Shown: positions 21,755 through 59,464 of the stretch, piece by piece
Position numbering within the stretch: position 1 is the stretch's first letter
Layout: each line of letters starts with the position of its first letter
Source of the DNA: Lactiplantibacillus nangangensis
GTDB lineage: Bacteria > Bacillota > Bacilli > Lactobacillales > Lactobacillaceae
Direction of reading: 5' to 3'
NCBI RefSeq assembly: GCF_005405065.1
Contig: NZ_BJDI01000001.1
Coordinates: 62,001-126,000, forward strand
DNA: 64,000 nt
Notes under the pieces: generated by a model
What the model was told of the DNA's origin: nothing
The model's database searches: none
The model's input: only the letters and a program-made list of their open reading frames with translations
Made by a program: the position numbers and the translations under genes

Positions 21755-22126
21755 TTGACAACTATCAATGATCGCTTTTACCAACCAAATGATATCAAAG
21801 ATGCGCTTCAAACTATTCAGAAATTATTCAATTCATACACTGATGCACCATTAACGCCAGAGTTATTGGCCTACCATCAAAAACTCGTCCACCAGTTAGA
21901 GACCAACCTCCTCCCACTCGCGCAACAAAACCATGATCAGTTGCGCCGCGACCAGATCAACAGCATGATTACTGTGATGCAGGATTGGTTGAAATTACGA
22001 CTGAGTGGGCAAGTCTTTAACGGTAAGATGCAACATTTCAAGTTTGTCAGCAAAGCTCAACCCCAGTTTAAACGTCGGGTGCATAAAATTCGTGGTGGCC
22101 AGAATCATCGCGCGAGTCGGCACTAG
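21755..22126 (+). CDS. Hypothetical protein with basic C-terminus, 123 aa
   Basis: I do not recognise this family. The protein is helical with a strongly basic tail (KRRVHKIRGGQNHRASRH), which could bind nucleic acid. The start is TTG at 21755, chosen because CGGAGG lies 8 nt upstream; the in-frame ATG at 21731 sits directly next to the TATACT -10 element and would be almost leaderless. The tRNA-Ala gene follows 48 bp downstream under its own promoter. Confidence 0.65.
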   Translation: MTTINDRFYQPNDIKDALQTIQKLFNSYTDAPLTPELLAYHQKLVHQLETNLLPLAQQNHDQLRRDQINSMITVMQDWLKLRLSGQVFNGKMQHFKFVSKAQPQFKRRVHKIRGGQNHRASRH

Positions 22127-24350: not shown

Positions 24351-25322
24351 TTAATCAGTAAATATTTCTGGATACAAGTTACGTAAAACGGCCGCTAAAG
24401 CATGTCCTACCGCTTGCGACCCGGCCAAATCTAAGTGAACGCCATCCGTCGTGCTGGGTTCCCAGTCAGCCGTTTCAATCAGCTGAACTGCCATAAATTC
24501 CGGCACCACGGTCCGAATCACACGATCAAACCGCTGATTAAATGGCACTAATACTGCAATTCGACTATTCGGATACAAGATTTGAACTTGATTAATGAAC
24601 TGTTTTAACAAAGCTGTGAAGCTTTCAGCCGATTCCAAGCCGTCATTCGTCCCAACATTGATCACCACAATATCCGTGGGCGTTGGCTGCCATGGCGTCT
24701 GACTGTCAATGGCAGTTAACACGTTTGGCAAAGGTGGCACGCCACCCTTCCCCGGTTTGTTAACGCCAACTGCACTATAGGCAATCCGAACGTTGCGCGC
24801 ATTCAATTGGTCACTCGCAATCGCGGCATAGTTGGCTTCACCGCGATAATCTTCTGCGGGCGTCTTACCAGCGACCCAGCAACCAGCCGTGATTGAATCG
24901 CCAATAAAGGTCAGACTATGTTGACCTAGTTTAACCGCATGCAAGGCGCCATCCGTTTGTAGCGCTTCAACGGCAAAGCCGCTCGTCCCATCCCAAACAG
25001 GATCCTGATCCGTATTGCCACTCATGACCACACGAATCACATGTGCTTGCCCATCCAAAGTTAACCGGAATGGCATTGTTTTGACTGCGACCCGTTGATA
25101 GGGCAAGCCATCGATTTGAATCGCGACCCACGCACTGGCCGTCGCTGCCAAGTCTAATAAGCTGATCGTCACATAGCTCGCCTGTTTAACTTGGAACCAA
25201 AACTCAGCGCCTAAATTCGTACTAAACATTACTGGGGTATTTTTAATCGTCTTAATTGCCCACCGACCTTGAAAATAAGCCGGCATGACGGGATTATTCG
25301 CCGTCGTTAATTGGTATTTCAT
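24351..25322 (-). CDS. SGNH/GDSL hydrolase, carbohydrate-esterase 2-like layout
   Basis: This 323-residue esterase has an N-terminal beta-rich domain (about 1-125) and a C-terminal SGNH domain. The catalytic set is seen: Ser143 in FIGDSITAG, the block III motif VGTNDG, and Asp293/His296 in TTDGVHLD. The jelly-roll plus SGNH layout recalls CE2 acetylxylan-type deacetylases. No signal peptide is present, so the substrate is probably an imported acetylated sugar. GGAGTGAAGGAC precedes ATG at 25322. It is divergent from the metal ATPase. Confidence 0.82.
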   Translation of the reverse strand: MKYQLTTANNPVMPAYFQGRWAIKTIKNTPVMFSTNLGAEFWFQVKQASYVTISLLDLAATASAWVAIQIDGLPYQRVAVKTMPFRLTLDGQAHVIRVVMSGNTDQDPVWDGTSGFAVEALQTDGALHAVKLGQHSLTFIGDSITAGCWVAGKTPAEDYRGEANYAAIASDQLNARNVRIAYSAVGVNKPGKGGVPPLPNVLTAIDSQTPWQPTPTDIVVINVGTNDGLESAESFTALLKQFINQVQILYPNSRIAVLVPFNQRFDRVIRTVVPEFMAVQLIETADWEPSTTDGVHLDLAGSQAVGHALAAVLRNLYPEIFTD

Positions 25323-25361
25323 GTCCTTCACTCCATCAATTCTCAATCTTATTTGTCAAAC

Positions 25362-25403
25362 TTGATACACGTCAATTTCTAATCAAGGACTAGCTTATAT
25401 ACT
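25362..25403 (+). promoter_or_regulatory. FNR/FLP-like box and promoter of the P1B ATPase
   Basis: TTGA-TACACG-TCAA (25362-25375) is centred 32 bp upstream of the centre of TATACT (25398-25403), the class II (-41.5) activator position. There is no good -35 element. The same geometry occurs upstream of both HMA genes. Confidence 0.75.
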
Positions 25404-25435
25404 AGATTCATCAAATCAAATAAGGAGTCCTCAAA

Positions 25436-27349
25436 ATGAAATTTCAACAGTTCTTAACTAAACATACGAACCAAATCACATTAATTACTGGGATCCTCAT
25501 CGCACTCGGGTTTCTCAGCAAATACGCTCTCAATTATACCCTCGGTTACCAAATCAGCCTAGCCGTCGCTTCCATCATCGCGGTCGTGCCAATTGCCGTC
25601 CGTGCTTGGAGCGCGCTGATCAACAAAGTTTTCAGTATCGAACTCTTAGTTAGCATCGCCGTCATTGGCGCCTTCATCATCGGTGAATTTAACGAATCAG
25701 CCGTCGTTACTTTCTTATTCCTGTTCGGGTCATACCTTGAAAGCAAGACCTTGCAAAAAACACGGAACGCTATCAAAGGCTTGACCGATCTATCCCCAAC
25801 CACTGCAACTTTAGTCACTGACGCCGGTACTGAAGAAGTCGACGTTGATGATGTTGACGAAGGTGATGTCGTCTTAGTCAAAACCGGGAACCAAGTTCCT
25901 GTCGATGGGACCGTCGTTGAAGGCAATGGTTATATCAACGAAGCGTCCATCACTGGTGAATCCCGTCAAATCAACAAAAATCTCGATGATCAAGTTTATT
26001 CCGGGACCATTGTTGAAAACGGCTATTTAAAAATCAAAGCCACCCAAGTTGGTGATGACACGACCTTTGCTAAAATCATCGAACTCGTCGAAGAAGCGCA
26101 AGATACGAAGTCTAAAGCTGAAAAGTTCATCGACCGCTTCGCGCAATATTATACTCCCGCCGTCCTCGTATTAGCTGCTTTAGTGTTCGTCTTCTCCCGT
26201 GACTTCCGACTGGCCATCACCGTCTTGGTACTCGGTTGCCCTGGTGCCTTAGTTATCGGCGCGCCCGTTTCAAACGTGGCCGGAATTGGGAATGGTGCCA
26301 AACGCGGCATTCTCATCAAAGGTGGCGAAGTCGTCGATACCTTTGCCAAAGTAGATACACTCGTTTTCGATAAAACTGGGACTTTAACGGAAGGCAACAC
26401 CGCCGTTTCAAGTTTCAAAGCTTATACAAACAATCAAGATCAACTCTTAAACTTAGCCGCAACCGTTGAAGGCGTTTCGGATCATCCGCTTGGCAAAGCC
26501 ATCATCGACTATGCTGGAAGCCACGCCAAAGCCAGTACCGACCTCAATTTGGATAACACTGAAACAGTTAAGGGCCAAGGTATCTGCGCTGAAGTCAACC
26601 ACTCACAAGTTGTGATTGGTAATCAAAAAATGTTAACTGCTCATGATATTAGTTTAACTGCGGATCAAGCTCATGATTTAAACGAGATGCAACAAGCCGG
26701 TAAATCAACGGTCATCATGGCCATTGACGGCGTTGTCCAAATGATCTTCGGTATTTCTGACACCGTTCGTCCCAACGTCAAAGAATCCTTAGCTGCTTTG
26801 AAAGCGCAAGGAATCAAACGACTAGTCATGTTAACTGGTGATAACGAATTGACTGCCGATGCCGTTGCTCGCGAACTCAATATTGATGAAGTTCACGCCA
26901 ACCTCTTACCAGAAGAAAAGGTCGATTACGTGAAACAGCTCAAGGCTGAGGGAAACACGGTAGCCTTCATCGGCGATGGCATCAACGATAGTCCTTCCAT
27001 TGCCAACGCCGACATTGGGATCGCCATGGGTAGTGGGACTGACGTCGCGATTGATACTTCCGATGTCGTCCTCATGCAATCCAGCTTTCCGGCTTTAGTT
27101 CATGCCCACGGCTTAGCTAAGAAAACCGTTTTAAACACGCGTGAAAACATCATCATTGCCATTGCGACCGTCGCCTTCTTATTAATTGGCTTAATCTTCG
27201 GTTACATTTACATGGCTAGCGGGATGTTCGTCCACGAAGCCAGCATCTTAGTTGTCATCTTCAACGCGATGCGCTTAATCAACTTCCGGACTAAATTCGA
27301 TAAGACTCGTCAAGAACCCGTTCATCAAACGGCTACAACTACCGCTTAA
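25436..27349 (+). CDS. Heavy-metal P1B-type ATPase with CPG motif
   Basis: This 637-residue membrane pump has two extra N-terminal helices, an actuator TGES loop, a transmembrane CPG motif (Cys268-Pro-Gly) in VLGCPGALVIGAPVSN, DKTGT at Asp312, the P1B-specific His-Pro in SDHPLGKAI and GDGINDSP. P1B pumps usually have CPC, CPH or SPC at this site, so CPG is uncommon and metal choice is unclear. There is no N-terminal HMA or His-rich metal-binding domain; two free HMA proteins are encoded nearby. ATG follows AAGGAG. The promoter carries an FLP-like box. Confidence 0.9.
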   Translation: MKFQQFLTKHTNQITLITGILIALGFLSKYALNYTLGYQISLAVASIIAVVPIAVRAWSALINKVFSIELLVSIAVIGAFIIGEFNESAVVTFLFLFGSYLESKTLQKTRNAIKGLTDLSPTTATLVTDAGTEEVDVDDVDEGDVVLVKTGNQVPVDGTVVEGNGYINEASITGESRQINKNLDDQVYSGTIVENGYLKIKATQVGDDTTFAKIIELVEEAQDTKSKAEKFIDRFAQYYTPAVLVLAALVFVFSRDFRLAITVLVLGCPGALVIGAPVSNVAGIGNGAKRGILIKGGEVVDTFAKVDTLVFDKTGTLTEGNTAVSSFKAYTNNQDQLLNLAATVEGVSDHPLGKAIIDYAGSHAKASTDLNLDNTETVKGQGICAEVNHSQVVIGNQKMLTAHDISLTADQAHDLNEMQQAGKSTVIMAIDGVVQMIFGISDTVRPNVKESLAALKAQGIKRLVMLTGDNELTADAVARELNIDEVHANLLPEEKVDYVKQLKAEGNTVAFIGDGINDSPSIANADIGIAMGSGTDVAIDTSDVVLMQSSFPALVHAHGLAKKTVLNTRENIIIAIATVAFLLIGLIFGYIYMASGMFVHEASILVVIFNAMRLINFRTKFDKTRQEPVHQTATTTA

Positions 27350-27356
27350 ACACGTG

Positions 27357-27391
27357 AAAAAGAACCGCCTTCATTGAGGGCGGTTCTTTTT
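27357..27391 (+). terminator. Terminator of the P1B ATPase, bidirectional
   Basis: AGAACCGCC pairs with GGGCGGTTCT, flanked by A and T runs. It also serves the convergent surface protein gene. Confidence 0.92.
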
Positions 27392-27429
27392 GTGTAATAA
27401 TTTAACTATTGATATTAACGGTCGAAGAT

Positions 27430-28947
27430 CTAGGACACTTGAACCCAATTAGTCCCGTCATATCTGAAGACAGAAAAGCCACCATCATAGTAATAAATCC
27501 AATCTGAATCTGGTAGAATTGGTCGGTCATATCGAACAGATGGATCCGTTGGCTTCACTACACCAGTATATAACCCAATACCAGGCTGATAGACACCATC
27601 GAGATAAATACCATCATCAATCAAATCAGGAAAACTAAGTTTCATATAGAGATTTTTGCCATCCAATGTAACGGGTAAAGCATAAGTAGTAAAATTCATC
27701 TGTCGTTCATTATTTGGATAAACTTGCATACCCAAATCACTTTTTAGCGACTGAGAAGCAATATTTGCATCTGTAAAATCACTTGAGGTATACAAATAAT
27801 CGCTTGTGCCAGTATATATTGCATGCACTGACTTGCCCGCAAAATCATTCACGGGAGCAGTCGCTGTACTAGACGAACTAGAACTATTGCTTGAAGATGT
27901 CACACTCGAGCTAGAACTGCTACTTACAGACTCAACGCTCGAACTACTACTCGTGACAGGCTTGCTTGTGCTAGAGCTGCTGCTTGAAACGACCCGACTA
28001 CTTGAATGACTAGTGACCTTCGTCGTTGACGTTGGTTTTTGGCTTGAACTGGTTTGCTTAGTTACGACAGCGTGCTTACCAGCTTTTACATAGTCACTCC
28101 GTACCCAACCGCTTACTGAGCCATTGGTATTTGAAATATTATAATAGCGATACTTCTTATTCCGCATATAAATATAACGTGCTTGCGTCGTCGTATAGTT
28201 ATCTTTAGCTGACAACGCCCGCGCACTAGTTAAATGCATTGCATTATTTTTGCCAGTTAAGCGATAGGTTTTCCCAGCTTTTGCCATGATTAAAGCCGTG
28301 GCTTTCAACTTAGAAACTCCAGTCATTTGATAGTCTTTACCAGCCTTCAAATAGTCGCTGGCAATCCAGCCACGCAACTTATTATCAGCGCTCACAACGT
28401 AATAATAATGATGTTTTTTTCCATTGAGATAAACATCTCGCTGTTTAGTCCGGTTATAGGTTAAATTTGTTTTTAAGGTCTTCCCATTTGTCAGCTTGAG
28501 CAGACTATTCTTGCCCGAAATAGTGACTAGCTTACCAGATTTAGCGCGATAGAAGGGCGCGCTTTTAGTCTTTTTAACTGAGCTAGCCTGATAATTTTTA
28601 CCAGCCTTTAAATCTTTTGCGTAAACCCAGCCCTTAACATTAGTCTTGGCATTCACAACATAGAAATATAACTGTTTCTTGTGATTCTTCGTCACATAAC
28701 TCTGGGCCGTTTTAGTCCAAGTCGTCTTAGTATAATTTTTCAAGGCATGATTTGCCTTCATCCGAAACTTGCGCGTCGAACCATTAAAGTTATAAGTCTT
28801 CCCTCGCTTATTAGCCACATAGTAACTACCATGCTTCACATTGACCGTCTTGGTGCGAGCATAACTGGTTGCAGCTTGTGCTGAAACAGTTCCAGCAAAC
28901 ATTGTCGCCCCAACCGTTACGACCGTCATCATTCTTTTAAAATTCAC
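27430..28947 (-). CDS. Secreted surface protein with three GW/SLAP-like repeats and Ser-rich linker
   Basis: This roughly 505-residue exported protein has a signal peptide ending near SAQA-AT. Three repeats of about 75 residues each end in GW-[VI]-x-[AS]-[DK] followed by [DY]LKAGK (GWVYAKDLKAGK, GWIASDYLKAGK, GWVRSDYVKAGK), rich in Lys and Tyr as in wall-binding SLAP/GW modules. Then comes a long Ser-rich linker and a C-terminal domain of about 120 residues with unknown role. No LPxTG is present, so binding to the wall is probably noncovalent. The start is GTG at 28947 after AGGGGTG; GTG at 28956 is the alternative. Confidence 0.75.
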   Translation of the reverse strand: MNFKRMMTVVTVGATMFAGTVSAQAATSYARTKTVNVKHGSYYVANKRGKTYNFNGSTRKFRMKANHALKNYTKTTWTKTAQSYVTKNHKKQLYFYVVNAKTNVKGWVYAKDLKAGKNYQASSVKKTKSAPFYRAKSGKLVTISGKNSLLKLTNGKTLKTNLTYNRTKQRDVYLNGKKHHYYYVVSADNKLRGWIASDYLKAGKDYQMTGVSKLKATALIMAKAGKTYRLTGKNNAMHLTSARALSAKDNYTTTQARYIYMRNKKYRYYNISNTNGSVSGWVRSDYVKAGKHAVVTKQTSSSQKPTSTTKVTSHSSSRVVSSSSSSTSKPVTSSSSSVESVSSSSSSSVTSSSNSSSSSSTATAPVNDFAGKSVHAIYTGTSDYLYTSSDFTDANIASQSLKSDLGMQVYPNNERQMNFTTYALPVTLDGKNLYMKLSFPDLIDDGIYLDGVYQPGIGLYTGVVKPTDPSVRYDRPILPDSDWIYYYDGGFSVFRYDGTNWVQVS

Positions 28948-29053
28948 CCAAAACACCCCTTTTTCTTTTTAAACCATTAGTAAATATACACCTAGCCCAC
29001 CCTCACTACTATATAAATATTGTTATATCCGCTAAGAATCTCAAACAAAATAA

Positions 29054-29082
29054 TTGCATTCATATACCTACGGGGGTATATT
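29054..29082 (+). promoter_or_regulatory. Promoter with CsoR-family operator
   Basis: TTGCAT (29054-29059) and TATATT (29077-29082) are spaced by 17 bp. The spacer holds ATACC-TACGG-GGGTAT (29064-29079), the G-tract palindrome type bound by CsoR/CstR repressors. The site would block RNA polymerase and is presumably used by the CsoR-family protein of the same operon. Confidence 0.8.
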
Positions 29083-29118
29083 AATAACATCAATTAACGC
29101 ATTGGAGGAGAATAACTA

Positions 29119-29439
29119 ATGATTAAAGAAATTCATGATCAAGATTTTGCCAAAGAAACTGATACTGGTATTGCCGTAGTCGACTTTCGTGCTGACTGGT
29201 GTCCACCATGTAAGATGATGGATCCAATTTTGAAATCTCTTTCGGAAGACCCAGCTTACAAGGATAAAGTTAACTTTGTTTCATTAAATGTTGATAATGA
29301 TCAAGAAGTTGCGAGCCAGTTCCAAGTTCAAGGCATTCCAACCTTCTTAATTAAAAAAGATGGCCAAGTCATCAGTCACATGGTTGGTGCGCGGCCAAAG
29401 TCTAACTTTGAAATTGAATTGAAGAAAGCGGTCGACTAA
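29119..29439 (+). CDS. trxA: Thioredoxin-like protein with WCPPC active site
   Basis: This 106-residue cytosolic thioredoxin fold has the redox pair in WCPPC (Cys28, Cys31) instead of the usual WCGPC, plus the cis-Pro loop GIPTFL. The Pro in the dipeptide should shift the redox potential relative to classical thioredoxin. GGAGGAG lies 8 nt before ATG. The CsoR-family repressor gene follows 2 nt after its stop, so the two are one operon controlled by the operator in the promoter. Confidence 0.92.
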   Translation: MIKEIHDQDFAKETDTGIAVVDFRADWCPPCKMMDPILKSLSEDPAYKDKVNFVSLNVDNDQEVASQFQVQGIPTFLIKKDGQVISHMVGARPKSNFEIELKKAVD

Positions 29440-29441
29440 TC

Positions 29442-29714
29442 ATGGCTGACAGCGAGACGCATTACGTTACTAGTAAACAAATTACGACGCGTTTGAAACG
29501 CTCAGCCGGACAGCTGGATGGGGTTTTGCGGATGATGGACGAAGATCGTTCTTGTGACGAAGTCCTCGTGCAGTTATCCGCTGTTAAATCAAGCATTGAT
29601 AAGGCCATGAAGCTTGTCATTGCCCGTAACATCAATGATTGTGTTGATAATATGACTGACGTTGATGTGGAAAATTTGGCACACTCATTAGATTTATTAT
29701 TAAAAACAAAATAA
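29442..29714 (+). CDS. CsoR/CstR-family repressor
   Basis: This 90-residue all-helical DUF156 repressor keeps the two conserved cysteines, Cys38 and Cys67, with the family spacing of 29. Copper-sensing CsoR has a His four residues before the second Cys; here the position is Asn63. That pattern fits persulfide-sensing CstR-like proteins, and co-transcription with a thioredoxin supports a thiol or sulfur signal. Sensing copper is therefore unlikely, but this is inference from sequence. The gene has a weak ribosome site and is probably coupled to trxA. Confidence 0.88.
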   Translation: MADSETHYVTSKQITTRLKRSAGQLDGVLRMMDEDRSCDEVLVQLSAVKSSIDKAMKLVIARNINDCVDNMTDVDVENLAHSLDLLLKTK

Positions 29715-29720
29715 TCACTA

Positions 29721-29752
29721 AAAAAATCCGCCGAAGATGGCGGATTTTTTAT
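29721..29752. terminator. Bidirectional terminator
   Basis: AAAAAATCCGCC pairs with GGCGGATTTTTT. Confidence 0.92.
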
Positions 29753-29760
29753 TGCTTCAC

Positions 29761-29964
29761 TTATTTATCGTCCCAGTTACCTTTTTTCCAATCATCATGG
29801 GCCCAGCTATCTTTATCCCAATCATCTTCCTTGGACGTTTGCTTCGGTTCATCAACTGGATGATTTTTAGCTCGCCGCATTAAAACTGCCGTTGTAATAA
29901 CGGTAATAAAGCCAGTTGCTAAGATAAAAACAGCCGTCCAAATAATGATTTCGCTAATCGACAT
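29761..29964 (-). CDS. Small single-pass membrane protein with Trp/Asp-rich tail
   Basis: This 67-residue protein has one membrane helix (IIIWTAVFILATGFITVITTAVL), a basic stop (RRAKNH), and a cytosolic tail in which DW or SW recurs between Asp and Lys residues (DDWDKDSW, HDDWKKGNWDD). I do not know a family function. ATG at 29964 follows GGGGGAA. It could bind metal ions or a partner through the acidic tail; that is a guess. Confidence 0.7.
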   Translation of the reverse strand: MSISEIIIWTAVFILATGFITVITTAVLMRRAKNHPVDEPKQTSKEDDWDKDSWAHDDWKKGNWDDK

Positions 29965-30015
29965 GGTTGAATTCCCCCAGTTTTTGTTAGCGCTAGTATA
30001 GCGCAACCGCGGCAC

Positions 30016-30265
30016 AAAGCCAACTTATGCTATTTTATAACTAATTTGATATACACCAAAACCGCTACTCACACGTAATACATTTCAGTATCTCTACAGC
30101 AGAATACATGTTAGTATGCAGGTGGAAAAGAATAAGTAACATGTATCACCTTAGAACACTCATCAATTCGGAGATTGATGGGTGTTTCTTGCTGATATAT
30201 ACAAAAAGCGACCCTAGATTAGCTCACAGACTAATCCAAGGTCGCTATACTGACTTCATTAACGT
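30016..30265. other. Intergenic region with an orphan plus-strand hairpin and the dps terminator
   Basis: ACACTCATCAAT (30157-30168) pairs with ATTGATGGGTGT (30174-30185), followed by TTCTT, with no plus-strand gene before it. AGCGACC...GATTAG pairs with CTAATC...GGTCGCT (30207-30246) and reads into TTTTT on the minus strand, so it ends the HMA-dps operon. Confidence 0.6.
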
Positions 30266-30820
30266 TTAATCTTCGTCATCGTCGTCTTCTTCGTCCAAGC
30301 CATCGCGAGCATCGTTGCCCAAGAAAGCTTGTAATTGACGAATATTGCGGTTATTGCTGCCACGGTAGCCCACTAACCAGGCAGCCAATGCTGGCCGTGC
30401 TTCTTTTTCAGCTAACTTGATGGCCCGGTCAACGAACAAGTTTTCCGTATCGAAATCCTTGATCGTTGCGGCGACCAGTGTGTCAACGTCGTTGTACTTG
30501 AAGGCACCGTTTTCTTCGAGCATTGAATACTTCGTTAATTCTGCCGTCGTTGAGGATGGCTTCTGCGCCTCATCCAACAATAAGTCCGCTAATTCCGCAA
30601 AATGCTTAGTGTTTAACGCGATTAAACGTGCATATTCTGGCCGTAAATTGAAAGCATTGGCGCCCTTCACGTACCATTTAACTTGGTTTAATTTGACATA
30701 TTCTACCATTAAGTTCGATAGGATATGGTTTGTCATTGCTCCCGCAGTGGGGACATGATGATCGATGTCACTTTGTTTTAATTCGGCTGCATATTGATCT
30801 TCGATAGTTAATTCACTCAT
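30266..30820 (-). CDS. Dps/ferritin-like protein lacking most ferroxidase ligands
   Basis: This 184-residue protein has the Dps helix-B signature KWYVKGANAFNL, but canonical Dps has HW at the first position. Aligned to E. coli Dps, ligands His51, His63 and Asp78 are replaced by Lys48, Arg60 and Ala75, and Glu82 by Asp79. It should therefore not oxidise iron in the usual way. The C-terminus is a very acidic tail (LDEEDDDDED) that could bind cations. It is 11 nt downstream of an HMA gene, with AAGGAGG before ATG, so the two form one operon driven by an FLP-like box. Confidence 0.8.
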   Translation of the reverse strand: MSELTIEDQYAAELKQSDIDHHVPTAGAMTNHILSNLMVEYVKLNQVKWYVKGANAFNLRPEYARLIALNTKHFAELADLLLDEAQKPSSTTAELTKYSMLEENGAFKYNDVDTLVAATIKDFDTENLFVDRAIKLAEKEARPALAAWLVGYRGSNNRNIRQLQAFLGNDARDGLDEEDDDDED

Positions 30821-30831
30821 GGGGGGCCTCC

Positions 30832-31053
30832 TTATTTGACCTTGACGCTTTGAACTTCATAGCCCAAGCCAGTCACAACATCCGTCAACTTATCAGCGTC
30901 AGTGACGCCTTCATCAAAATTCGTTTTTACTTTGCTGGCATTGAATAATACTTTGACGTTTTCCACGCCAGATTGATTTTCCAAAGCCTTTTCGATTTTA
31001 GTCATGCATGATGGGCAGGTCAGTGTCCCTAATTGCATCGTTGCTTTTGCCAT
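30832..31053 (-). CDS. Heavy-metal-associated (HMA) protein, CopZ-like
   Basis: This 73-residue single HMA domain has the metal motif LTCPSCMTKIE. It probably carries Cu+, Zn2+ or a related soft metal to a partner. ATG at 31053 follows ACGGAGGT; the longer frame starts in the leader. It shares about two-thirds of its residues with the neighbouring 80-aa HMA gene, so they arose by tandem duplication. Here it leads an operon with the Dps-like gene. The usual MxCxxC methionine is replaced (TCPSC), as in some Zn/Cd-type domains. Confidence 0.9.
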   Translation of the reverse strand: MAKATMQLGTLTCPSCMTKIEKALENQSGVENVKVLFNASKVKTNFDEGVTDADKLTDVVTGLGYEVQSVKVK

Positions 31054-31094
31054 AATAATTACCTCCGTTTGTTTAAATCTCATTGAATAAGGCT

Positions 31095-31137
31095 AGTTTA
31101 CTAGTCGAAACATGATTTGAACTTGACCGCCATCAAG
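31095..31137 (-). promoter_or_regulatory. FLP-like box and promoter of HMA-dps operon
   Basis: CTTGA-CCGCCA-TCAAG (31122-31137) overlaps the stop codon of the upstream HMA gene. Its centre lies 32 bp from the centre of TAAACT (31095-31100 on the minus strand), giving a class II position of about -41.5. Confidence 0.78.
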
Positions 31138-31375
31138 AAATGGCAACTTTTTCAGCTTTAACTTTCAGTTGCTTAACGGTGTACCCAAGTTCAGTCACCA
31201 CATCAGCCAGCGTTTCAGCGGTCGTCGCCGTTTCATCAAAGCTAACTTTAACCTTGCTAGCATTGAACAAAACCTTAACTGCCTGCACACCGGGCTGCTT
31301 TTCCAAAGCCTTTTGAATCTTGGTCATGCATGACGGGCAAGTTAACGTGTCTAATTGCATAATTGCTTTAGTCAT
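31133..31375 (-). CDS. Heavy-metal-associated (HMA) protein, second copy
   Basis: This 80-residue HMA domain has TCPSCMTKIQ and an extra C-terminal tail (KAEKVAIS) compared with its neighbour. Roles as in metal delivery or buffering are inferred from the fold. ATG at 31375 follows ACGGAGGT. Its own promoter has an FLP-like box identical to that of the next HMA gene, and the duplication includes the promoter. The end of this gene overlaps the box for its downstream neighbour. Confidence 0.9.
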   Translation of the reverse strand: MTKAIMQLDTLTCPSCMTKIQKALEKQPGVQAVKVLFNASKVKVSFDETATTAETLADVVTELGYTVKQLKVKAEKVAIS

Positions 31376-31416
31376 TTTAATTACCTCCGTTGGTTGAGTT
31401 GCGATTTGATGGTTCT

Positions 31417-31459
31417 ATCATAACGGGAATTTATTGATAAAAACTTGACCGCCATCAAG
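31417..31459 (-). promoter_or_regulatory. FLP-like box and promoter of the 80-aa HMA gene
   Basis: CTTGA-CCGCCA-TCAAG (31444-31459) is identical to the box upstream of the other HMA gene and centred exactly 32 bp from TATGAT (31417-31422). Confidence 0.78.
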
Positions 31460-31676
31460 AAACAAAATCTTTTTTCGTTATATGATAATGTTGTTCGAAA
31501 GAGTTGTCGTACTTATATAGTAGAAACTTGCCGTCTACCCTCACGGCTAAATAGCGCTTCATAGTTTGCTGAGTTATCGTAGACAGATACAACGCTAAAA
31601 TTTGAACAGACTAAAATGATTAGGAAAATCTGGTCAAGAATTAGCGTCATGGTCTTGCTATGTTTTATCCGATCCG

Positions 31677-31700
31677 GACTTGTTAGCGCGCTAACAAGTC
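31677..31700. promoter_or_regulatory. 24-bp perfect palindrome upstream of the FLP gene
   Basis: GACTTGTTAGCG is followed directly by its exact complement CGCTAACAAGTC, about 100 bp before the FLP start. There is no T run, so it is more likely an operator than a terminator. Confidence 0.6.
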
Positions 31701-31800
31701 ATACGGTTATTTACGCCGGAGACATCAAATCAGACAGCAAGAAAGCCCCTAACGATAAATTCTGATATAGTTAGGTCGGAGATATAAAGGAGGTAATTTC

Positions 31801-32475
31801 ATGTCAGCACACGCAACCCATGAATGCGTTCAATTAGTGCCAATTTTTCAAGAACTCGCCGCTGACCAACTTGATACGATCGAATCCATCGTGCAACATC
31901 ACCACTATCAACCGGGGGAAACGTTGTTTAACGCGGATGATCCATTGGATACCTTAATGATCGTTTCAGGTGGTCAAGCGAAAGTGTATCAATTGGCAGC
32001 AAATGGTCGGGAGCAATTATTATATCTATTGCAAACTGGGGATATCGATGGCGAGGCCGCCTTATTTGAAAATAAGCGCCGCACCTCCTATGGGGAAGCC
32101 TTAGTGCCAACGGATGTTTGCAGCATTCGCCGCGAAGACTTCCAAGCTTTGATGCAAAAATATCCAAGTATCAGCATTAACGTGCTGAACGTCTTCGGCA
32201 AACGGCTCACGCAATTGGAACGGCAGACAACGAGTACAGCCACCGAATCCGTCGAAGCGCGTCTGGCAAATTACCTCACTGAAACTGCGGCTTCACTCAA
32301 AGTTACGGCTTTCAAGTTACCTTTAAAGAAAAAAGATCTCGCTACTTTTCTAGGCACTACCCCTGAAACAATTAGTCGAAAACTAACTCGTTTTGAGCAA
32401 GCTGGCTTAATTACGCAGAGACCGGGTAAGGTCATCCAAATCAATGACGCGGACCAATTATTATTAGTTGAATAA
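31801..32475 (+). CDS. CRP/FNR-family regulator, FLP-like
   Basis: This 224-residue regulator has a cyclic-nucleotide-binding beta-roll (about 15-125), a dimer helix, and a C-terminal winged HTH. The recognition helix has ETISR (residues 189-193), the FNR residues that contact TTGA. There is no FNR-type cysteine cluster, but Cys9 and Cys107 are spaced almost as Cys5 and Cys102 of L. casei FLP, which form a redox-active disulfide. It probably activates the three TTGA-N6-TCAA promoters at 25362, 31122 and 31444. ATG follows AAAGGAGG. Confidence 0.9.
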   Translation: MSAHATHECVQLVPIFQELAADQLDTIESIVQHHHYQPGETLFNADDPLDTLMIVSGGQAKVYQLAANGREQLLYLLQTGDIDGEAALFENKRRTSYGEALVPTDVCSIRREDFQALMQKYPSISINVLNVFGKRLTQLERQTTSTATESVEARLANYLTETAASLKVTAFKLPLKKKDLATFLGTTPETISRKLTRFEQAGLITQRPGKVIQINDADQLLLVE

Positions 32476-32484
32476 ATTTACGTT

Positions 32485-32511
32485 GGTCGGGCGAAATCCC
32501 GGCCTTTTTTT
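32485..32511 (+). terminator. Terminator of the FLP gene
   Basis: GGTCGGG pairs with CCCGGCC, followed by TTTTTTT. Confidence 0.9.
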
Positions 32512-32578
32512 GCACCGGCAATTTTAATCTACGTTATAATTAAAGCTGTATTAGAAAATTAATCGAGGAGTGGATTTA

Positions 32579-34495
32579 ATGGCAACAATCAGTCAAGCAG
32601 CAGTTAAACAAGATCTCTATGACGCCGTCAACGGTGACTGGCTCAAGACCGCCGAAATTCCCGACGATCATGCTTCAACTGGTGGCTTTATGGACCTTGT
32701 TGATGCGATTGAAAAAACGTTAATGCACGATTTTGATGCCATGGCTGCGGGCGAAACGAAACCAACTGATCCGCAGTTAGCTGAATTCATTAAATTTTAT
32801 CAATTAACCAAAGACTTCAAACAACGCAATGCCGCTGGCGCTAAGCCAATCTTGCCTTGTTTGAAACAAATCGACAGTCTTAGTGACTTTGCCGATCTCC
32901 AACAACGGATGCCCGACTGGATCTATGATGGGCTCCCATTACCATTCAGTCTGGACGTTGACGCGGACATGAAAAATACCAAAGTCAACGCGTTGTTTGC
33001 CCAAGCGCCGGGCACGATTTTGCCAGACAAGACTTACTATGATGAAGGTAATGAATCGGGGCCAAAATTATTAGCCGTTTACGGCCAAATGATGACGCAG
33101 CTCTTACAATTGACTGGTTATAAAGCAGACGAAGCCCAACAAATCGTGGACGATACGTTAAAATTTGACCGGTTAATCGTGCCGTGGGTCAAGAGTGCTG
33201 AAGAATCAGCCGACTACAGTAAGATGTACAATCCCCGCGCCTTTAAAGATTTCGCCAATGACAGCAAGTACCTCGATTTAGCTGCCATTACTTATTCCGT
33301 TATCAATGGCAATCCTGAAATCGTCATTTTGCCAGAACCAGCTTTCTTCGATCATTTCAACGAAGTCGTTAATCCTGAAAACTTCGATATGATGAAGAAC
33401 TGGATGAAAGCTAAGCTCGTTCAACGGTTGAGCGGCTATTTGAGTGATGAGATGCGGACGCTAGGAACAACTTATTCACGGACTTTATCTGGTCAAAAGC
33501 AACCCCGTAATCAAGCTAAGAGTGCTTATTACTTAGCTGCTGGCACGTTTGACCAAGTTGTTGGCCTTTATTATGGTCACAAATACTTCGGTGAAGCTGC
33601 CAAAGCGGATGTTCACCAAATGGTCGAAAAGATGATTGGCGTTTATAAGCGTCGGTTAGAAGCTAACACTTGGTTGAGCGCCGATACCCGCGCCAAAGCC
33701 GTCACTAAATTGAATAATCTTGGCATCCAAGTTGGCTATCCTGATAAATTGGAAGCCGTTTACACGAAATTCAAGACGTTATCCGCCGCAGATGGTGGGA
33801 GCGTGTTAAGCAATGTGCTGGCCTTTGGACGGATTGCCAGAAAAGATATGTTTGCCAAATGGGGCCAGCCAACTGACCGGACCCGTTGGGAGATGAGCGC
33901 TGACACGGTCAATGCTTATTACCATCCATTCATGAACATCATCGTGTTCCCTGCCGCCATCTTACAAGCACCGTTCTACAGTTTGGAACAGTCTTCAAGT
34001 GCCAACTATGGTGGGATTGGGGCCGTGATTGCCCACGAAATCTCACATGCGTTCGATAACAATGGCGCGTTGTTCGATGAATTCGGGAATTTACACAATT
34101 GGTGGACTGAAGCCGATTCTGCCCACTTCAAAGAACTCGCCAAATCAATGATCACTGAATTCGATGGTCTTGATTTTGCCGGCGCTAAAGTTAATGGGAC
34201 CTTGACCGTCTCCGAAAACATTGCCGATGCCGGTGGCTTGAGCTGTGCTGAAGAAGCTGCCAAAAGTGAAGATGATGTTGATTTAAGTGCTTTCTTCACC
34301 AACTGGGCCATGGTTTGGCGAATGAAAGCGACGAAACAATACATGCAACTTTTGCTTTCAATCGACGTCCACGCACCAGCCAAATTGCGTGCGAACGTGC
34401 AACCAAAGAACTTAGACGACTTTTATACCACTTTTGACATTACGCCCGAAGACCCGATGTATCTGGCACCGGACCAACGTGTTAAAATCTGGTAA
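32579..34495 (+). CDS. pepO: Neutral endopeptidase PepO (M13 family)
   Basis: This 638-residue zinc metallopeptidase has the HExxH motif in AHEISHAFD (His486, Glu487, His490) and the third ligand region ENIADAGG (Glu546, Asp550). M13_N occupies about residues 1-380, with M13_C after it. No signal peptide or membrane helix is present, so it is cytosolic, as PepO is in lactic acid bacteria, where it cuts casein-derived oligopeptides. ATG at 32579 is chosen because GAGGAG lies 8 nt upstream. TATAAT at 32535-32540 gives a promoter. Confidence 0.95.
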   Translation: MATISQAAVKQDLYDAVNGDWLKTAEIPDDHASTGGFMDLVDAIEKTLMHDFDAMAAGETKPTDPQLAEFIKFYQLTKDFKQRNAAGAKPILPCLKQIDSLSDFADLQQRMPDWIYDGLPLPFSLDVDADMKNTKVNALFAQAPGTILPDKTYYDEGNESGPKLLAVYGQMMTQLLQLTGYKADEAQQIVDDTLKFDRLIVPWVKSAEESADYSKMYNPRAFKDFANDSKYLDLAAITYSVINGNPEIVILPEPAFFDHFNEVVNPENFDMMKNWMKAKLVQRLSGYLSDEMRTLGTTYSRTLSGQKQPRNQAKSAYYLAAGTFDQVVGLYYGHKYFGEAAKADVHQMVEKMIGVYKRRLEANTWLSADTRAKAVTKLNNLGIQVGYPDKLEAVYTKFKTLSAADGGSVLSNVLAFGRIARKDMFAKWGQPTDRTRWEMSADTVNAYYHPFMNIIVFPAAILQAPFYSLEQSSSANYGGIGAVIAHEISHAFDNNGALFDEFGNLHNWWTEADSAHFKELAKSMITEFDGLDFAGAKVNGTLTVSENIADAGGLSCAEEAAKSEDDVDLSAFFTNWAMVWRMKATKQYMQLLLSIDVHAPAKLRANVQPKNLDDFYTTFDITPEDPMYLAPDQRVKIW

Positions 34496-36851: not shown

Positions 36852-39008
36852 TCAACTAGGCGCATTTGAAAGCGTCCAAGTAATTTTCCCAGAATAGGCG
36901 CCAGGTGTTGCCGCCGCATTCGTTTCAAAGAATAAACCCGTCTCTTTGGTCCAACTTTGCATCACATCATATTCATCCGTATCACTGGTACTCGTGTGAC
37001 TATCAATCACGGTCCCAGACCCATTGATCACGGTCGATTGTGTGCCATCCTTATAGACAACTTGTCCCGGTAATTTGCGTCCATCTTCGTTGCTAAAGTC
37101 GCTCGCGCTCGCTTGTAATTGCCAGCTGGAGTCCTTCCCACGATCATCGGCTACCACGAGTTCCCAATCATCCTCGCGTTGCGCGGTTTGAGCTTTACCA
37201 TCAAGCGTGATGGCTGAAAACTTACTCGTCGCCGAAACCGTCTTAAAGCCTAAGGAACCACTAGTGACATGAATTTTGACGTTCAACGTATTTGAGTAGT
37301 TTTCGTCCTCATCCATTGCATAAAGATCCAAGGTATTGTCCCCAACATGTAGCTGACTTGATTTCACGATCATTTTGAAGAGTGCTGATTCATCATCGTC
37401 ACTCATTTTAAATGGTTCCAGATCCTCGCCATTTAATTTCGGATAAATTGTAATCCAACTGTTCGTTAACTGTTCAGAATCTTCCCCAAATACAAATCCC
37501 GTCAGTTTTAAGTCTTGCCCATTTTCAATGGTGTATGACAGCGTTGACATGTAGAGTATCAATGGTTGGTCGACCGTAATTAGATAATCCGGCGCGATCG
37601 TTTTAACTTCAAGCTTGTCACTTGTAAAAAAGGCATCGGTAGCGGTCGTTTGCGTATTTACCGCCACATTATCGGCCTTACCTACCATCGTGATCGTCGC
37701 CGTCCGATTATCAGCATGGAGATTTTTTCCGATGTCGTAGTCAACACTTTCAGCCCCTGCTTCTGGTGCTTTCATGAGTTGCGTACCGCCATCCGCATAT
37801 TTAATGCTAACCTCGCTAAACGTCACAGCTTTCGGCAAAGTAATCTTAGCCGTAATGTGATCCCAATCCATCTGACCTTCTTTATAAGTCAACGTGTAGG
37901 TGTATTCCAGACTATCCTTAGCTTTAACTTTCATCCCAGTCGTCACTTCACGATTCTTTGACTTATCGACTACTTTGACATCTGCCGCGCCATCTAGCAT
38001 TAGATTGGGCACTGTTTCAAAGACGACCAGACTGTTGCCCGTATTCCCACCGTTGGTTCCCATAATGCCCCAGTTTACTTTTCCATCAGCACTATTAAAT
38101 TGACTCGTATCAATTGGATGAACCTGGGTCACTGTATTAGCATTAGCGGTGCCGTCAACATTGATGTCATCATACGTAGACGTCATCGTTTTAGCAGCGG
38201 CATTCCAGTCCAAGACGACATGATGCCACTGACCATCCGCTAAACTCAGATTCGGCTGCACATTATCATGAACTTGTGTGAAATACCGATTCGTCCCGAT
38301 AATCCCCCAGATAGTTAAACCAGTCACCTTTTCTGGCGTATATTGCGCCGCTAAACCGGGATACCCGCTCGCAATGTGTTGACCTTTGATCCCATAATCG
38401 AAGGCACTCCCACTACCGGCGTCGCTATAGCTCGTTTTAGTATTACTAAAGGAATCAAATTCAAGCGCCCAACTATTTTGGATCCCCGTGGCCGCAATTT
38501 CGGCCGGATCTTTTCGGTTCGTGTCGTTATCGACACCCCAGACCCCAAGTGTTTCACCAACCACGGTTTTCTTAGTAAAGGCAGAGGCAGCACCAGTACC
38601 ATTTGGGTCATTTTGCATGACAAAGGCTAGCCCATCACTCGATTTACTACTGGAAGCGCCAAAGTAAGCCCAAAATTTAATCGTGTCATTCTTGGTCAAA
38701 TCCAGCTTATTTACTTCGCTGGACCACGCCCCACCCAATTGCTTTTTAGTATTATTGATTTCAATCGCTTGCGTGTTAGGTGCACTCGTCGTGTTCACAT
38801 CTTTAATACTCGCAGAATTGGCGACACCATTAGAAAATTCTGTCGGTAAAATAAAGAGTTTATCTAATTGGTTCAACCCTTTTGGCGCACTGTCAATGGC
38901 ACCCGCCGTTGGGTCAACATCGGCGGCTTGCGTGCGCATCATGGTAAGTCCGAGACTCACCATCACCATTAATCCGGCTAATAATCCTGTTGTTAGTCGC
39001 TTGCGCAT
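36852..39008 (-). CDS. Large WxL-domain surface protein with L-type lectin domain (CscC-like)
   Basis: This 718-residue exported protein has a signal peptide (to about residue 29), a bacterial L-type lectin domain (about 40-340; note KFWAYFG, SWALEFDSF, HHVVLDW), a middle region with repeated beta modules, and a C-terminal WxL domain with WQLQASASDF and ending in ITWTLSNAPS. WxL domains bind the wall noncovalently. It probably captures sugar polymers outside the cell. ATG at 39008 is chosen over GTG at 39011, with GAGAGGAG upstream. It is the last gene of cluster A. Confidence 0.88.
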   Translation of the reverse strand: MRKRLTTGLLAGLMVMVSLGLTMMRTQAADVDPTAGAIDSAPKGLNQLDKLFILPTEFSNGVANSASIKDVNTTSAPNTQAIEINNTKKQLGGAWSSEVNKLDLTKNDTIKFWAYFGASSSKSSDGLAFVMQNDPNGTGAASAFTKKTVVGETLGVWGVDNDTNRKDPAEIAATGIQNSWALEFDSFSNTKTSYSDAGSGSAFDYGIKGQHIASGYPGLAAQYTPEKVTGLTIWGIIGTNRYFTQVHDNVQPNLSLADGQWHHVVLDWNAAAKTMTSTYDDINVDGTANANTVTQVHPIDTSQFNSADGKVNWGIMGTNGGNTGNSLVVFETVPNLMLDGAADVKVVDKSKNREVTTGMKVKAKDSLEYTYTLTYKEGQMDWDHITAKITLPKAVTFSEVSIKYADGGTQLMKAPEAGAESVDYDIGKNLHADNRTATITMVGKADNVAVNTQTTATDAFFTSDKLEVKTIAPDYLITVDQPLILYMSTLSYTIENGQDLKLTGFVFGEDSEQLTNSWITIYPKLNGEDLEPFKMSDDDESALFKMIVKSSQLHVGDNTLDLYAMDEDENYSNTLNVKIHVTSGSLGFKTVSATSKFSAITLDGKAQTAQREDDWELVVADDRGKDSSWQLQASASDFSNEDGRKLPGQVVYKDGTQSTVINGSGTVIDSHTSTSDTDEYDVMQSWTKETGLFFETNAAATPGAYSGKITWTLSNAPS

Positions 39009-59286: not shown

Positions 59287-59464
59287 AATGCTATTAAACC
59301 GTTTTCATCAGCAATCAACAATGGCTTGGCTACATAAGATATATATCCTAACTACAGGTTCACAATCTTTAGTTAGGCGTATTCAAGTTACACATCCTAA
59401 TTGAAGTTGCTCAATATTTTGTGCTACCATTATCGAAATGACAGTTAATTTAGAGGTATTTATT

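Follow-up and report, generated by a model that had tools for sequence, protein, structure and literature searches.

The window analysed here, a stretch of 64,000 nt from Lactiplantibacillus nangangensis (contig NZ_BJDI01000001.1, positions 62,001 to 126,000), carries three TTGA-N6-TCAA boxes ahead of genes for a P1B-type metal ATPase, two stand-alone metal-binding proteins (HMA1 and HMA2) and a Dps-like protein, next to flp, which encodes a CRP/FNR-family regulator of the FLP type. The three boxes and their neighbours probably (about 0.8) form an FLP regulon for metal export, carriage and protection that works by class II activation. This reading is built on the geometry of the sites, their conservation, the linkage of the genes, the co-occurrence of regulator and ATPase, and the invariant cysteines of FLP. 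The elements concerned are the following.

25362 to 25375, + strand: candidate FLP box 1, TTGATACACGTCAA, ahead of the ATPase gene
25398 to 25403, + strand: -10 element TATACT of the ATPase promoter, centre 32 bp from the centre of box 1
25436 to 27349, + strand: P1B-type metal ATPase, 637 amino acids (aa), without an N-terminal HMA domain, with CPG in transmembrane helix 6 (TM6) and HEAS in TM8
30266 to 30820, - strand: Dps-like ferritin-fold protein, 184 aa, downstream of HMA1
30832 to 31053, - strand: HMA1, stand-alone metal-binding CopZ-like protein, 73 aa, with TCPSC
31095 to 31100, - strand: -10 element TAAACT of the HMA1-dps promoter, 32 bp from the centre of box 2
31123 to 31136, - strand: candidate FLP box 2, TTGATGGCGGTCAA, overlapping the last 4 bp of HMA2
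31133 to 31375, - strand: HMA2, stand-alone metal-binding protein, 80 aa
31417 to 31422, - strand: -10 element TATGAT of the HMA2 promoter, 32 bp from the centre of box 3
31445 to 31458, no strand assigned: candidate FLP box 3, common to HMA2 and flp
31481 to 31486, + strand: -10 element TATGAT of the flp promoter, mirror image of the HMA2 promoter
31801 to 32475, + strand: flp, CRP/FNR-family regulator of the FLP type, 224 aa, with Cys9 and Cys107 as its only cysteines

Promoter geometry and its conservation

The three boxes were found where a sequence-only reading of this DNA had placed them, and its claim that the centre of each -10 lies exactly 32 bp from the centre of its box was true for all three promoters. 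It had further seen no good -35, and this held: over 43 distinct ATPase promoters, the hexamer most like TTGACA agreed with it at 2.70 of 6 positions on average, close to the shuffled level (2.49, range 2.12-2.84). The promoters have the class II layout, that is, a box near -41.5 and a -10 but no -35, with transcription starts placed from the -10. The box alone was rejected as evidence, because the pattern is too common: the window has 8 where 2.15 are expected, a number equalled in 1 of 100 shuffles, and the whole genome has 225 where the reversed pattern has 96. Once the spaced -10 was included (box + N22 + TANNNT), six sites were observed in the window against 0.03 expected, and none of 100 shuffles reached six. 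These six are the three promoters above, a further one facing flp (31445-31486) and two that look like by-products, at 31123-31164 (antisense into HMA2) and at 38072-38113 (within a 719-aa open reading frame, ORF). Among the other boxes in the window, those at 29291-29304 (in the thioredoxin-like gene trx), 21755-21768 (in an ORF) and 38100-38113 (in the 719-aa ORF) were taken as chance; the remaining two lie at 1632-1645 and 59401-59414. Across 21 genus genomes, the stricter pattern TTGAY-N4-RTCAA-N22-TANNNT gave 169 matches against 12 for its reversal, a lenient control as TTGA-N6-TCAA is itself commoner than its reversal.

The conservation of the sites was assayed in a genus-level set collected by tblastn (at least 60% identity, at least 75% coverage and at least 150 bp of upstream DNA), drawn mostly from the genus but including some transferred copies and plasmids; matches starting after residue 8 were left out, and two Saprospiraceae matches (L021 and L022; 26%) were excluded from the counts. 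The exact box with its spaced -10 preceded the ATPase gene in 19/19 distinct regions (21 in all), the HMA gene in 34/35 (64 in all) and a gene for a 94-aa RIC-like protein in 8/8 (14 in all); the sole HMA miss, L121, has an IS6 transposase gene adjoining. The dps gene, which follows HMA, had no spaced -10 in its 26 distinct upstream regions and a box in one. No box was found upstream of the control genes trx (0/23 distinct regions), tmHyp (0/16), pepO (0/13) and nox (0/12), 0/64 in sum. After near-identical promoters were merged and later loci added, giving 35 ATPase and 48 HMA clusters, the half-sites and the -10 were constant and the remainder variable among these pattern-selected promoters. 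The sequence-only reading had held that the boxes define a metal export regulon, and at the sequence level this is supported by their conservation and by the unboxed neighbours; a check it had proposed, whether the boxes are missing in close relatives, was made, and they proved conserved in the genus and in other genera. The set goes beyond the members it had listed (regulator, pump, two chaperones and Dps), as flp and the RIC-like gene are boxed too. The RIC-like gene is present in 8/21 genus genomes, the copy of the window's genome lying on another contig, and its product is called only RIC-like because its matches to TIGR03652, the full-length model of the Fe-S repair protein RIC (ScdA), are weak and partial (31 and 46 bits against a cut-off of 204.7).

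Among 301 genomes of the family, an FLP-like protein (E <=1e-3, paralogues included) was found in 200 and the ATPase (E <=1e-130) in 186. Both were present in 184, the ATPase alone in 2, the FLP-like protein alone in 16 and neither in 99, a co-occurrence with a Fisher p of 2e-59 when kinship is ignored. In detail, 58 non-genus genomes were chosen for their better FLP matches; every one of them gave a Dps relative with a best E of <=2e-35 and the ATPase with a best E of <=3.3e-145. Promoters outside the genus were checked after leaving out ATPase matches that start after residue 10 or 12. The exact box with its -10 was found at 29 of the best 30 ATPase loci of these 58 genomes. Of the best 30 Dps loci, 10 had a box and five a spaced -10, these five (L129, L130, L131, L137 and L140) being the ones where dps is not behind HMA.

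A further 28, more distant loci (20 picked for diversity and eight for FLP linkage or diversity) showed a box at the ATPase in 23 and the exact site in 21. The seven inexact loci include L218 and L219, which have the box and, at the same spacing, CATAAT. At L231, L239 and L241 the exact site precedes an earlier gene of the ATPase row, and a one-mismatch box at the correct spacing was read by eye at L232. Many of the 28 loci have a second such promoter ahead of HMA. The gene order at L231 (flp, box, RIC-like gene, ATPase, HMA) independently ties the RIC-like protein to the set, and in L234-L237 the genes for ATPase, HMA, Dps and FLP stand in one row on one strand. Conversely, 20 of the 101 FLP-negative genomes were checked, and 19 of them have no ATPase of at least 50% identity; FLP-negative genomes gave 30 ATPase-like loci, and owing to the limit on late-starting matches the promoter of one of these (L154) was examined.

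The regulator and the HMA2-flp palindrome

FLP matches PF00027 (cNMP-binding fold) and PF13545 (Crp-type helix-turn-helix), both above cut-off. The FNR recognition residues ETISR, already noticed in the sequence-only reading, were located at positions 189-193, and E-[TS]-[IV]-S-R was found in all 38 distinct orthologues of at least 57% identity. Cys9 and Cys107 are invariant in the same 38 proteins, 37 of which have no further cysteine, with one extra in L094. FLP-type proteins are defined by a pair of cysteines, the first N-terminal and the second near residue 107-112; FNR proper requires four, and the window FLP has only two. Cys107 aligns with a cysteine of the FNR-type regulator of known structure 9qlt, which we take to be a cluster ligand. 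When the FLP alignment was searched as a profile against solved structures, the alignment obtained was to an unrelated cyclic-nucleotide-binding protein, and an FNR counterpart was seen for Cys107 alone. FLP was found in 21/21 genus genomes. Eight of these have only one FLP-like match and still keep the box ahead of HMA, so FLP itself is the best candidate for the regulator.

The best reading of FLP is that of a putative thiol- or metal-responsive class II activator. An FLP dimer would bind TTGA-N6-TCAA centred at -41.5 and activate RNA polymerase by class II contacts at promoters with a -10 but without a -35; its predicted targets are the HMA-less ATPase, HMA1, HMA2, the Dps-like protein, flp itself and the RIC-like protein. 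A toxic soft or transition metal, or the accompanying thiol oxidation, would alter the Cys9/Cys107 pair, upon which FLP would bind DNA, raise its own level and switch on carriers that pass the metal to the pump, with Dps and the RIC-like protein limiting the damage. Within this scheme we infer dimerisation, the roles of the proteins and the metal, as well as binding and activation, from the recognition helix together with a constant spacing and the lack of a -35, and a thiol-oxidation or metal signal, from the two invariant cysteines and earlier work on L. casei FLP.

A second -10, absent from the sequence-only reading, lies on the other side of box 3, 32 bp away and facing flp. Divergent HMA-flp intergenic regions number 52 in total and 27 distinct. 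The box and the HMA-facing -10 are present in 27/27 of the distinct regions, and a flp-facing -10 stands at equal distance from the same box in 24/27, against a background for TANNNT of 2.7% per position in these regions. The 27 include many close relatives or transferred copies and are not 27 independent events. It is likely, as judged from this arrangement, that flp is autoregulated from a site common to HMA2 and flp. A perfect 24-bp palindrome, GACTTGTTAGCGCGCTAACAAGTC, was also observed at 31677-31700 in the long flp leader, 3' of the flp -10, and could be the operator of another regulator or a hairpin.

More tentatively, and at rather less than even odds, one symmetric FLP site may drive two mirror-image class II promoters and couple thiol or metal stress to metal export, carriage and Fe-S protection, with FLP as an FNR whose cluster site has shrunk to a two-thiol switch. 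If this were true, FLP would have a protective role widespread in Lactobacillaceae, the regulator gene and a metal-carrier gene would share, and might compete for, a single activator dimer, and the oxygen-sensing cluster site of FNR would in FLP have been reduced to a two-thiol metal or redox switch.

Target proteins, neighbouring genes and mobility

The ATPase has CPG in TM6 in 51/51 distinct orthologues, and in none of them was a CxxC found within the first 70 residues. Its TM8 motif is HEASI in 46, HEISI in three and HEGSI in one, with one further HEASI missed by the pattern. P1B-4 ATPases are defined by SPC in TM6 and a HEG(S/G)T-like motif in TM8, and the CPG of all 51 orthologues departs from the former. 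The cadmium model of NCBIfam scored 475 bits and the copper model 421 bits, both over cut-off. CPSC is present in all 67 distinct HMA proteins, and such carriers point to a soft or borderline metal; a divalent metal of the Zn/Cd type is favoured, then Cu, then Fe.

Among solved structures, L. lactis DpsA (1zs3) comes nearest to the Dps-like protein, followed by 1zuj. The ferroxidase ligands of Dps are, in Listeria numbering, His31, His43, Asp47, Asp58 and Glu62. Among 64 distinct relatives neither His was present in any, and Asp47 was kept in 14, Asp58 in 33 and Glu62 in 25; the term inert Dps, used in the sequence-only reading, is supported at the level of these ligands.

Two genes between the ATPase and dps were placed outside the regulon.

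29119 to 29439, + strand: trx, thioredoxin-like protein (CPPC), syntenic neighbour without a box
29442 to 29714, + strand: CsoR-family repressor with C-N-C, syntenic neighbour directly behind trx

The C-N-C of the CsoR-family protein, seen by eye in 20/20 distinct relatives, presumably occupies the usual C-H-C positions, with Asn replacing the His ligand of copper-type CsoR; we take Asn at that position to be as in the persulfide-sensing CstR. A search of 25000-32600 against Rfam gave nothing at gathering cut-offs.

The gene set was also found on plasmids. Those of L. plantarum (L119) and Leuconostoc (L122) carry the genes for the ATPase, trx, a csoR-like gene, dps, HMA and flp, and an L. plantarum plasmid stretch (L120) has the same genes without flp, an IS30 transposase gene adjoining HMA. 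An L. paracasei plasmid (L123) has ATPase-HMA-Dps with boxes on ATPase and HMA, and no annotated flp was seen there within 8.2 kb. Plasmid records with a match numbered 191; five were examined, and the others include 95 from Enterococcus and 26 from Listeria. The FLPs of L014-L019, which come from Liquorilactobacillus, Ligilactobacillus, Paucilactobacillus and an unplaced Lactobacillus sp., share 84-86% identity with the window FLP. Such identity in other genera, together with the plasmids, suggests transfer.

Boxes were also observed elsewhere. FLP2 (G000:C16:22108-22778; L050, L100), a 43% paralogue of FLP with cysteines at both equivalent positions, has the box TTGATAATTATCAA directly upstream, and in G000 the -10 that lies 32 bp away faces a divergent protein of 185 aa for which neither Pfam nor NCBIfam gave a clear match. 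Among the matches listed, 12 of the 13 FLP2-bearing genus genomes have a box and -10 beside FLP2, and in the remaining one, G020, the box is present. The spacers of the FLP2 boxes are rich in A+T. Another box with a -10 (L109; G012:C1:895298) lies 353 bp upstream of an ORF that was named by eye as pyruvate-oxidase-like, and G016 holds a near-identical copy of this sequence. In L104 (G004:C9) a box and -10 stand 66 bp ahead of an 85-aa ORF of unknown family, and the box at G017:C21:70836 resembles it. L099 (G000:C14) and L110 (G003) have a similar box and -10 in a convergent intergenic region where no target gene or ORF was found downstream of the box; the product is possibly a small RNA.

Competing explanations and known systems

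That FLP activates these promoters was weighed against three other explanations. FLP could be a repressor, its dimer over -41.5 blocking polymerase until released by metal or redox stress. The box does adjoin the -35 region, several metal regulators are repressors, and conservation alone is neutral on the sign of control. However, a box held exactly at -41.5, combined with a -35 that does not exceed chance, is an activator layout, and a repressor site would have no need to keep one distance to the -10 from each promoter to the next, which makes repression improbable. Still less probable is it that FLP2, the C11 protein or another CRP/FNR-type regulator is the main user of the boxes, an idea that draws on the three family members above cut-off in the genome, the similar boxes beside FLP2 and the ATPases of G042 and G083, boxed without an FLP match; against it stand the HMA boxes of the eight genus genomes with a single FLP-like match, the many loci in which flp adjoins the target genes or lies between them, and the A+T-rich spacers of the FLP2 boxes.

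The boxes might finally be chance or inherited promoter sequence without any regulator, since TTGA-N6-TCAA occurs often (225 per genome) and sequence is shared among close relatives. This is very unlikely in view of the six spaced sites against 0.03 expected, the half-sites that stay while spacers and flanks diverge across the 35 ATPase and 48 HMA clusters (although pattern-selected), the fit of nearly all promoters checked in the genus set and in the best loci of other genera, and the neighbour genes without boxes.

Several observations weigh against the FLP regulon as proposed. Its conservation fits activation and repression alike, and the sequence arguments on this point come down to the fixed spacing and the lack of a -35. 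In 28 distinct flp regions a box was found within 260 bp in 19 and a spaced -10 in 16 (the window's own flp box lies beyond 260 bp and so outside this count), and the flp-facing -10 is missing in three of the 27 divergent regions (L008, L027 and L028). L195 and L240 are without a box at the ATPase, and 16 genomes have an FLP-like match without the ATPase. The genome encodes two further CRP/FNR-type regulators above the family cut-off, the paralogue FLP2 has similar boxes, and further cysteines occur in the more distant FLP-like protein of L231 (42%). Two genomes without an FLP match carry a boxed ATPase: G083, which is 65% complete, and G042, which is 99% complete, has an ATPase of 54% identity and lacks FLP without an explanation unless by recent gene arrival or the use of another regulator. 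At the G042 locus (L154; G042:C4) the boxed ATPase and HMA genes adjoin an ORF resembling an insertion sequence transposase by eye, a setting that suggests recent transfer.

As an FLP regulon, the set would be compact and conserved with a fixed promoter geometry, offering direct FLP targets and testable signals. It would connect metal export, and a Dps that lacks most ferroxidase ligands, with an FNR protein of the redox type, and would provide a clean natural example in which one activator site may serve two back-to-back class II promoters. The regulator would thereby gain a likely job in metal defence across many genera of lactobacilli.

The module had been called poorly described in the sequence-only reading, a label that disregards the earlier studies of FLP in L. 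casei and L. lactis and the listing of a FlpA regulon in PMC3616900. In the part of that paper available, the known regulons said to be expanded under 'metal homeostasis' include FlpA along with AdcR, CopR, MntR and SczA, and the main text refers the content of the FlpA regulon to additional files, so that it may overlap the present set. As far as the text was accessible, FF-41.5 promoters are named and L. casei FLP is cited in PMC4505428, and lp_3327, called a Cd/Zn/Co ATPase, rose 4.57-fold with cadmium in one L. plantarum strain (PMC5430759); from this portion it could not be told whether lp_3327 is the same as the window ATPase. A literature search found no description of this target set in titles and the beginnings of abstracts, with many subscription papers and supplements beyond reach.

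Among known systems, the window ATPase has a full-length match to the structure 7qbz, which we take to be sCoaT, a P1B-4 ATPase (record name: cadmium translocating P-type ATPase). HEGS in TM8 of 7qbz aligns with HEAS, and the lack of an HMA domain in the window ATPase also counts as a likeness, whereas TM6 of 7qbz has SPC where the window ATPase has CPG. L. lactis DpsA and 1zuj, presumably DpsB of Lactococcus lactis, resemble the window Dps as its closest solved relatives; unlike them, the window Dps stands in a gene row with a metal exporter and an HMA gene.

To our knowledge, work on the FLPs of lactic acid bacteria has been mainly in vitro and has lacked a firm target set. L. casei FLP, likewise an FNR-like protein of lactobacilli, was reportedly found by Gostick and colleagues (in Gostick et al. 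1998) to have a Cys5/Cys112 disulfide switch that controls DNA binding; the present targets were not found described for it in the accessible text. L. lactis FlpA and FlpB are FNR-like as well, and flp mutants of L. lactis are said to be linked to zinc and H2O2 stress. Class II (FF-41.5) promoters of E. coli FNR have a TTGA/TCAA box at -41.5 and no -35, read by a protein with E..SR residues, and the present system shares the box position, the missing -35 and the E..SR of FLP; in contrast to FNR, FLP has two cysteines in place of the four-cysteine [4Fe-4S] site, and its putative targets are metal genes. In the available part of PMC3616900, L. lactis FlpA stands under metal homeostasis. S. suis FlpS, an FNR-like activator for which two N-terminal cysteines are reported, controls arginine deiminase and not metal export in the portion of PMC5039431 available, where Gostick 1998 is cited for L. 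casei FLP and Scott 2000 for L. lactis FlpA. Compared with these systems, the set described here is an FNR-like regulon of a known family, unusual in its content and geometry, and partly anticipated by the metal-homeostasis label of 2013.

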